Origin: Ktedonobacterales bacterium
Lineage (GTDB): Bacteria > Chloroflexota > Ktedonobacteria > Ktedonobacterales > DATBGS01
Direction of reading: 5' to 3'
Assembly (NCBI GenBank): GCA_036557285.1
Contig: DATBHW010000044.1
Coordinates: forward strand, 1 to 64,000
Length of the DNA: 64,000 bases
The notes beneath the pieces are model-generated. The model saw nothing but the letters and a program-made list of their open reading frames with translations. It ran no database searches and was not told the origin of the DNA. This document shows, in pieces, positions 11,827-16,362 of this stretch. The position numbers and the translations under genes were made by a program. The stretch's first letter is position 1. Every line of letters starts with the position of its first letter.

Positions 11827-13578
11827 CTACCGGCTGATCGTCACTGGCAGCGTTACTTCTGGCTTCTCGGGTATAGTAAACGTCTCGGAATAAAACACGC
11901 CCAGGATGTACTGCCCCGGATCCACAAAGGCAATTTTAAGAAACGAGGCATACTTGCCCGCTCCAGGGCAGGTGATGGGCTGCGGCGCGTCGTTAAGAAT
12001 CAACTGCCCCTTGCTATCGAGCAGCGCCACGCCTGCCTCCGCAGTGTGGCTGCCACCATTCTCTGCCGTATAAATAAGCCACATATACTCGTCCGTTTGA
12101 TGAAAGCTGGTGGTCGGGTTTTCGATCTGTATAGGCCGACACGAGTCGCCAACGTTCCCGGTAATACCCAACCCGGTCTGGATACTCTTGATATGTGGGC
12201 CACTGGGAACAACAGGTACCGCGCTGCCCAGGCCCGGCGTGCCAGTGACGCCAGGCGCGTTGGGCTGCCCGCTGTTCCCGCCTGGTCGCCCCATCACCAG
12301 CGTCACAATCAAAACAATCGCAACGACCACACTCACACCGCCAGCCAGGGCCGCCCAGGCGGTCCAGGAGCGCCGGGGGCGCGCGTATGACGGGAGTATC
12401 GGCGGTGGTGGGAGCGGACCCGCCGCCACAAACGAATCATCCGCAGACTGCCTTGCCTGCATCGTCATCGGCGGCGCAGGGACAAACGGCGCGCCACCCG
12501 GCATAAGCGGAGCAACCTGCGTCGCCCCGGCGGCAGCAGGTGGGAGGCGCTGCTGTGGAACCGCATCAGTGGCTGCCAGCGGCGGGCTGAGCGGCGTGGC
12601 AGCCTGTGGGGCCGGTAATACGGGTGCGCCGCCAGCCTGCGGCGCGCCAGCCGCGCCCGGCAGAGGCTGAGGTAACGGAGACGCCAGCGGCGCAGCGGCA
12701 GGTCTGGAAGCGGCTGAGCCTCGCGCCCTGGCGCACGCCTCACGATAGGCAGCCGCAAAAACGATCACGCTCGGCCAGCGATCCCCAGGATTTTTCGCCA
12801 GCGCCCGCAAGACCGCTTCATCCACCTCAGCCGGGATGGCCGGGCTGATCGCGCGCATCGGCGGCGCTGGGACCGCCAGTTGTTTCGTGACAACCTCAAG
12901 CAAGCCCCCCTGAAACGGAAGCTGCCCGGTCAACAAGAGATACACCATCGCCGCCAGGCTGTATTGATCGCTGGCCGGGAGCGCCTGGCGCTGAATCTGC
13001 TCTGGCGCGCTATAGGCAGCCGTCCCCGAGTACACGGCGCTGTTTGCCGCCCCGGAGGTGAACTTGGCAAGCCCAAAATCGGCCAGCAGCAGGTGAATAC
13101 TGCCCGGCGAACCCGCGCCCATCAAAAAGTTCGCCGGTTTCACGTCACGATGCAGCACACCGCGATCATGCGCGTGTTGCAGCGCCCGCGCCGCCTGATC
13201 AACGACCACCCCGGCCAGCTCAAGCGAAAGCGGCAGGCCAAAACGGAACGATGGATGCCCTGGCGTCAGCGCCTCTTGCAGCGAGCCATTGGGCGCGTAA
13301 GCCATCACCAGATAGGCCAGGCCACTCTGCTCCCCAAAATCATAGACAGGCAAAATATGCGGATGCTCCATCGCCGCAATGGCCTGCGCCTCGCGCGCAA
13401 AACGCTCAGCCGGATTCGCGCCGCTCGCTGCCGTTTCTACTTCCGGGCGAACCAGTTTGATCGCCACCTGGCGTTTCAGGCTGACCTGCTCCGCCAGATA
13501 CACCTCGCCCATCCCACCGCCGCCCAACCGCCGGATAATCCGACAGCCACCGATAATCTGTCCTTCTAATCCCGCCAT
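11827..13578 (-). CDS. Transmembrane Ser/Thr protein kinase (PknB type)
   Basis: A 583-residue membrane kinase. The catalytic domain (about 1-270) has GGGGMG, Lys41 in VAIKLV, His143-Arg144-Asp145 in LHRDVKPAN and DFGLAK, so it should phosphorylate Ser/Thr. A long Ala/Pro linker, one TM helix (VVVAIVLIVTLVM) and a small extracellular beta-rich domain of about 130 residues follow, without PASTA repeats. The start at 13578 (GGAG seven bases upstream) aligns with the paralogue's M-A-x-L-E-G-Q. Extension to 13644 would add a proline-rich, poorly supported leader. It is first in a kinase-pseudokinase pair. A TATAGT near 13671 on minus is a possible -10. Confidence 0.9.
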   Translation of the reverse strand: MAGLEGQIIGGCRIIRRLGGGGMGEVYLAEQVSLKRQVAIKLVRPEVETAASGANPAERFAREAQAIAAMEHPHILPVYDFGEQSGLAYLVMAYAPNGSLQEALTPGHPSFRFGLPLSLELAGVVVDQAARALQHAHDRGVLHRDVKPANFLMGAGSPGSIHLLLADFGLAKFTSGAANSAVYSGTAAYSAPEQIQRQALPASDQYSLAAMVYLLLTGQLPFQGGLLEVVTKQLAVPAPPMRAISPAIPAEVDEAVLRALAKNPGDRWPSVIVFAAAYREACARARGSAASRPAAAPLASPLPQPLPGAAGAPQAGGAPVLPAPQAATPLSPPLAATDAVPQQRLPPAAAGATQVAPLMPGGAPFVPAPPMTMQARQSADDSFVAAGPLPPPPILPSYARPRRSWTAWAALAGGVSVVVAIVLIVTLVMGRPGGNSGQPNAPGVTGTPGLGSAVPVVPSGPHIKSIQTGLGITGNVGDSCRPIQIENPTTSFHQTDEYMWLIYTAENGGSHTAEAGVALLDSKGQLILNDAPQPITCPGAGKYASFLKIAFVDPGQYILGVFYSETFTIPEKPEVTLPVTISR

Positions 13579-13718: not shown

Positions 13719-13784
13719 TCTAACACTTTTCTAATACTTTTCCTACAGACCTCTAACACTTCTCATACACCCTTCTAATACCCC
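13719..13784. repeat. Six in-phase 11-bp direct repeats (consensus TCTAAYACYYY)
   Basis: Consecutive 11-bp units are TCTAACACTTT, TCTAATACTTT, TCCTACAGACC, TCTAACACTTC, TCATACACCCT and TCTAATACCCC, beginning at 13719, 13730, 13741, 13752, 13763 and 13774. A weak seventh unit may precede them. The period equals about one helical turn, so all units face the same side of the DNA. The array lies between the divergent kinase gene and the Cys-rich/groESL unit. A candidate plus-strand -35 (TTGGAC at 13802) lies 18 bp beyond it. This layout resembles operators of SARP/AfsR-type activators, which bind heptads at 11-bp spacing. Confidence 0.7.
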
Positions 13785-13886
13785 ATATGCGATACTCCCC
13801 TTTGGACTGACTGAAAAGACGCGCAGAATGGTTCCATCCTTGCAGCAGGCGCGTCCGACAGAGAAGGAGTGAGCGGCTCCGCAGGC

Positions 13887-14126
13887 ATGATGAACGCAGG
13901 CTATTTTGCACAGCACGAAAGAGAGCGCCATGCGCCCGACGCGCCCGAAGAGCGCCCCCTCGCGCAAAACCCTCAATCGCTGCGGCGCTGCGCCAACTGC
14001 GACATTGAAATTGCCTGGTCGCCCATTATCTCTGATGGTCTGGCCTACTGTTGTACGGGATGCGCCCAGGGTGGGCCGTGTTCGTGTGACTACTCCGAGC
14101 ATGCCAACACGCCGTCCAGGCGCTAA
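13887..14126 (+). CDS. Small cysteine-rich, probably zinc-binding protein
   Basis: A 79-residue protein with Cys residues in [12 protein letters not shown] and [17 protein letters not shown], spaced like a metal-binding treble-clef or metallothionein-like knuckle. The N-terminal half is polar. A GTG at 13869 would add six residues, but it directly abuts the AGAAGGAG ribosome-site candidate. The ATG at 13887 sits 17 bases from it, so the start is uncertain. It lies 55 bp upstream of groES on the same strand and may share its promoter, suggesting expression under protein-folding or metal stress. Its function is unknown. Confidence 0.62.
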
Positions 14127-14181: not shown

Positions 14182-16118
<1,937 letters not shown>

Positions 16119-16201: not shown

Positions 16202-16362
16202 GCCTCACACAACCTCCGCACGAGCAGAGGCGGGGTTGTAGCGCCGTCCTTCCAGGCGGCAGGGGCGGGGTTGTAGCGCCGTCCTTCCAGGCGGCAGGGG
16301 TAGGGTTGTAGCGCCGTCCTTCCAGGCGGCAGGGGTAGGGCCAACCGTCGGTTGTGTGAGGC
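16202..16362. repeat. 161-bp element with 13-bp perfect terminal inverted repeats enclosing a 3 x 35-bp tandem repeat
   Basis: The ends are GCCTCACACAACC (16202-16214) and its exact reverse complement GGTTGTGTGAGGC (16350-16362). Inside, a 35-bp unit beginning GGTTGTAGCGCCG starts at 16234, 16269 and 16304. Each unit contains a variant of the dispersed palindrome (GCCGTCCTTCCAGGCGGC). No open reading frame and no target-site duplication are seen. It is probably a non-autonomous mobile element or a repeat island between groEL and sixA. Confidence 0.75.

Follow-up and report, generated by a model that had tools for sequence, protein, structure and literature searches.

The locus described here raises the question of what six tandem 11-bp repeats do directly upstream of the groESL operon in a Ktedonobacterales bacterium, and which protein would read them. 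Bacterial heat-shock control is mostly known through repressors (HrcA, CtsR and HspR) or alternative sigma factors (RpoH and SigB), and the original prediction for this DNA was that the repeats are a binding region for a new stress regulator, possibly of the SARP type. We followed up the repeats within the window, by which we mean the whole 64,000-nucleotide stretch analyzed, in the genome to which it belongs and in related and unrelated bacteria.

The six-unit array and its operon

The array is 66 bp in length (13719-13784) and is composed of six exactly contiguous 11-bp units on the plus strand: unit 1 at 13719..13729 (TCTAACACTTT), unit 2 at 13730..13740 (TCTAATACTTT), unit 3 at 13741..13751 (TCCTACAGACC), unit 4 at 13752..13762 (TCTAACACTTC), unit 5 at 13763..13773 (TCATACACCCT) and unit 6 at 13774..13784 (TCTAATACCCC). 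These coordinates are exactly as first proposed, whereas the accompanying consensus, TCTAAYACYYY, is matched by units 1, 2, 4 and 6 only, and the description of identical bases on one DNA face was too strong because units 3 and 5 are degenerate. The six units have a mean pairwise identity of 0.642, the top score for any six 11-bp segments in the window, whereas the best scores in 60 replicates of 64 kb generated by a first-order Markov model averaged 0.448 and never exceeded 0.497. The array is also the sole strong site in the 5.1-Mb window genome. Unit 3 has a CCTA form that is kept as the third unit in relatives, where it reads TCCTAYG, GCTTACG or GCATACG and consistently not TCTAACA (alignments A2 and A3).

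Downstream on the same strand are an ORF for an 85-residue Cys-rich protein (13869..14126, start codon uncertain), groES (14182..14478) and groEL (14493..16118). The divergent neighbor is a Ser/Thr protein kinase gene (11827..13578, minus strand), in whose place relatives often carry a biotin-carrier gene. The expectation that the array would be conserved in relatives was borne out for its position upstream of groESL, as described below, and not for its position beside a Ser/Thr kinase gene, which is probably not part of the system.

Conservation of the array at heat-shock genes

The first arrays identified in relatives by DNA search were upstream of groESL. A three-unit pattern had matches in 45 of 47 Ktedonobacteria genomes, with reversed-control matches near zero, and most of the loci matched lie upstream of groESL, whether or not the Cys-rich ORF is present. 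This search, built on groESL sites alone, also matched htpG (L057, L077 and L081), hsp20 (L079) and a second groESL (L073), and many further hsp20 and htpG sites were identified using profile R1, mostly outside its training set. The exact four-unit pattern had only 31 matches in 84,980 genomes, comprising 28 at groESL (26 with groES read directly and two that are truncated but coincide in position with other groESL loci), two at clpB in Anaerolineae MAGs and one chance match inside an unrelated ORF. In other Chloroflexota classes, R1 and a broader profile, R2, identified sites at the promoters of dnaK or grpE-dnaK, groESL, hsp20 and htpG.

A heat-shock gene in the same orientation was found downstream of 107 of the 113 strong sites read, namely 85 of the 88 loci in Ktedonobacteria and 22 of the 25 elsewhere, counts which are approximate for the class loci because a few of these stand for one and the same place. 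None of 12 weak R1 matches had such a gene. For profile training and INDEPENDENCE, R1 contained groESL sites plus a few htpG and hsp20 sites, to which R2 added nine other-class sites; since the profiles were built on them, those sites are not independent evidence, but neither the three-unit nor the exact four-unit search involved such training, and 12 of 13 new R2 sites were heat-shock promoters. Three of the six exceptions reach contig ends (L078, L082 and L182) and a fourth, L187, is the regulator locus itself (see below), leaving L142 and L348 unexplained. Locus L348 (G193:C1:5587841-5587878) has three TCTAACAC-like units at 11-bp spacing and no recognised heat-shock gene downstream, and is a possible further regulon member.

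Across the class and beyond it, the position and sequence of the array were conserved while its flanks had diverged. Hence, neither an absence of conservation at orthologous genes nor a random genomic placement, either of which would have spoken against a stress-regulator binding region at groESL, was observed, and that part of the original prediction is supported by arrays in nearly every Ktedonobacteria genome and by related arrays at other heat-shock genes. Outside class Ktedonobacteria, matches were present in 10 of 60 sampled genomes, so either part of the phylum lacks the system or our model is too narrow. Two loci from Centralia MAGs titled "Proteobacteria bacterium" (L225 and L227) have array positions equal to those of the Ktedonobacteria genomes G005 and G006, and these titles look wrong.

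Promoter register of the array

A -10 hexamer, GATACT (13791..13796, plus strand), is situated 6 bp past the last unit, an equal distance to that in relatives, and is preceded, at a distance of one base, by the TG of an extended -10 (13788..13789, plus strand), which was read from the sequence and whose position is conserved in alignment A2. The layout in relatives is one of TCTAAC units with TCCTAY as the third, a last TCTAAC unit, 11 bases and then the -10, in forms such as CATACT, TATTAT and TATAGT. Between the last unit and the -10, the spacing does not change among the aligned Ktedonobacteria sites and differs by no more than about a base in other classes. Relatives have four or six units, a difference of 22 bp, equivalent to one pair. 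No TTGACA-like -35 was seen at the array promoters, in which the repeats occupy its place, and the -10 is weak but extended. With the -10 set at -12 to -7 from a predicted transcription start, unit 6 falls at -29 to -19 and unit 5 at -40 to -30.

These features correspond to two known types of operator. In boxes of the PhoB, PhoP and KdpE type, OmpR-type winged helices read direct repeats of 11 bp arranged in tandem, and the array likewise places such repeats upstream of a -10 that lacks a good -35. In addition, the predicted positions of its last two repeats are those of a SARP box: in the afs box of AfsR, two 11-bp direct repeats at -40 to -30 and -29 to -19 overlap the -35, each with eight conserved contact bases; a protomer touches the leading 8 bp of its own repeat, and sigma region 4 is engaged by the dimer as well (PMC10936776). 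Based on this shared register, the array is probably an activator site that takes the place of the -35. It differs from SARP boxes in having four to six repeats, not two, and in being found at chaperone rather than antibiotic genes.

A candidate two-component regulator

The window genome encodes some 16 OmpR-type regulators and gave seven BTAD hits. Reciprocal best hits among genomes pointed to a few widely conserved regulators, the strongest of which was a response regulator (L200; window genome G000, contig C50:1377-2126, minus strand) with 63-80% identity to its counterparts. Its partner is a GAF/PAS-type histidine kinase (C50:2151-3857, minus strand). L200 was chosen as a reciprocal best hit before any adjacency to an array was known. 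In a quick tree, eight L200 orthologues formed one clade with 99% support and one member per genome. In G293, regulators were sampled only in part.

Three arrays outside the family of the window genome abut genes of this pair. The hsp20 arrays of G085 and G193, which lie outside class Ktedonobacteria, are divergent from a GAF/PAS histidine kinase gene of the L200-partner family; the G085 kinase shares 42-43% identity with the partner kinases of G000 and G003 and 57%, over 526 aa, with the one next to the G179 orthologue, and the gene after the G193 kinase is an L200 orthologue (68% identity). The G204 array, initially listed as unclear, also lies directly beside this kinase-regulator pair, whose regulator has 66% identity. 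The array therefore adjoins the kinase gene in three other families, with the regulator gene directly next in two of them (G193 and G204), and in all three genomes the kinase start codon is within a few bases of the outer edge of the array. For about 25 sites, a simple count (two neighbors in 4,000 genes) gives an expectation of roughly 0.01 adjacencies to one specified gene pair, which the three seen appear to exceed by far. In the window genome, none of the regulator genes was preceded by an array that would point to autoregulation, and no related kinase was found beside the regulator in G002 or G125.

The regulators have REC and Trans_reg_C domains, and the kinases have PAS, HisKA and HATPase domains, with GAF detectable in most. 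The kinases have no obvious transmembrane segment, as judged by highest 19-residue hydropathies of 1.4-2.2 rather than by a dedicated predictor. Among models and structures, those of RpaB, KdpE and PhoP are the closest to the candidate regulator, but its best score against the RpaB, KdpE, PhoB and MtrA equivalogs (224.7 bits) is below the NCBIfam curated cut-off (330), and its targets are heat-shock genes, which sets it apart from the PhoB, PhoP and KdpE type despite the common domain composition. The pair can also be likened, in its proposed targets, to Hik34-Rre1 of Synechocystis, in which Rre1 has a DNA-binding domain of another type. In that system, the soluble kinase Hik34 controls htpG and groESL1 and is an inferred negative regulator (review PMC3264485).

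Given the single regulator clade and the arrays that adjoin the kinase gene in three other families, the C50-type histidine kinase with its OmpR-type response regulator is the likely reader of the array. It is rather unlikely that the array is an activator site for a different protein, either a SARP/BTAD activator or another response regulator, for example of the PhoP, L197 or L192 type. The exact correspondence to the AfsR/SARP register would by itself suit a SARP equally well, candidates of both kinds are numerous in the window genome, and regulators of the L190, L192 and L197 types are conserved in many genomes as well. Against this, only the C50-type pair was found adjoining arrays, and this in three families. 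The best candidate belongs to a two-component system and has no BTA domain, no link between the BTAD proteins of the window genome and the array was found, and the SARP-type reader suggested originally was not supported. PhoP (L190, beside phoU/pst genes) should have this box at phosphate genes, and is an unlikely reader because the strong sites are at heat-shock genes and the targets read include no phosphate genes. Two further candidates were set aside: the OmpR-type regulator L263, which lies 1.5 kb away from hsp20 in G125, falls outside the conserved clade, and in a REC-containing protein divergent from htpG in G042 (locus L057) no OmpR-type domain was seen.

Proposed mode of action

We consider it quite probable that the array serves as the operator in a heat-shock promoter that depends on an activator, and that its reader is the C50-type OmpR regulator with its partner kinase. 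In such a mechanism, the winged-helix response regulator would bind the 11-bp direct repeats head to tail on one DNA face, with two units per dimer. The promoter-proximal pair would occupy -40 to -19, where a -35 would otherwise lie, and hold sigma region 4 of RNA polymerase at the extended -10, and the upstream pairs (one in most relatives and two in the window) would provide cooperative binding. Upon heat or protein misfolding, this one operator would drive groESL, hsp20, htpG, dnaK/grpE and clpB in various Chloroflexota. The proximity of the kinase start codon to the array edge suggests feedback, in that regulator binding there may lower kinase-regulator expression.

Alternatively, a repressor comparable to CtsR or HrcA could cover the promoter at the array until relieved by heat. 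The array does extend to the promoter core, where it could block polymerase, and most known heat-shock operators (CIRCE, the CtsR box and HAIR) are repressor sites. We regard this as improbable, however, as a weak, extended -10 with repeats where a -35 would be, and four to six of them at a fixed spacing upstream, resembles activator promoters. The CtsR box in particular has tandem GGTCAAA heptads spaced 10 bp, unlike the TCTAAYA unit and 11-bp period of the array. A specialised sigma factor that recognises the conserved sequence as an unusual core promoter is very improbable: many relatives retain the extended -10, TGnNATACT, together with the array, but the tandem 11-bp periodicity, the variation by a whole pair (four versus six units) and the extension of the array to about -84 are not expected of a sequence recognised by sigma. 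Lastly, although short tandem repeats arise easily and the array is intergenic, a functionless product of chance or slippage can practically be dismissed given the conservation of its position and sequence between diverged flanks.

If the array is indeed an activator operator, two-component positive control of the main chaperone genes would represent a different logic from that of the repressors and sigma factors described above, in a large and poorly studied phylum. Somewhat more tentatively, we favor the view that a substantial part of Chloroflexota controls groESL, dnaK, hsp20, htpG and clpB positively through one cytosolic two-component system acting on tandem 11-bp repeats, which would partly replace control by HrcA/CIRCE and sigma factors. 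The open-access literature searched, both for the motif and for heat-shock regulation in Ktedonobacter or Chloroflexi, contained no earlier account of such an operator or regulon. The regulator, kinase and operator named here are open to direct test, and promoter arrays provide a means by which uncharacterised genes can be joined to a regulon.

Relationship to other heat-shock controls

Of the 47 class genomes, 44 have HrcA, and many of them have CIRCE-like sites near hrcA; five of six hrcA loci have a CIRCE match with two to four mismatches, and the window genome copy (L189) has three. Upstream of groES, the best matches to CIRCE (TTAGCACTC-N9-GAGTGCTAA) had 5 to 9 mismatches of 18, with six in the window, in agreement with the proposal that the groESL unit lacks this element. 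Since CIRCE-like sites are near hrcA and not at groES, groESL appears to have left HrcA control, which hrcA-grpE-dnaK appears to keep in Ktedonobacteria. While both array and CIRCE are associated with chaperone operons, the latter is an inverted-repeat repressor site with a different location in these genomes.

In Ktedonobacteria, 17 of 24 hsp20 sites have, by a strict pattern, the inverted repeat CTTGATA-N7-TATCAAG directly upstream of unit 1. Its spacing to the array is fixed in most of these promoters (e.g., L125, L126 and L130), and it was not seen at htpG sites. This repeat is perhaps a second input at hsp20. It has the geometry of the HAIR/HspR site, CTTGAGT-N7-ACTCAAG, with a different sequence, and no HAIR was seen beside the window array.

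Other features of the groESL region

The Cys-rich protein has no Pfam family and only a sub-threshold NCBIfam match (PP0621 family), and a related ORF opens the groESL operon in most f2 relatives. A different first operon gene is present at L343 (G228), where a DoxX-like ORF is located between the array and groES-groEL. Just downstream of groEL in the window (16224-16335) are approximately three copies of a 35-bp tandem repeat with 96% matches.
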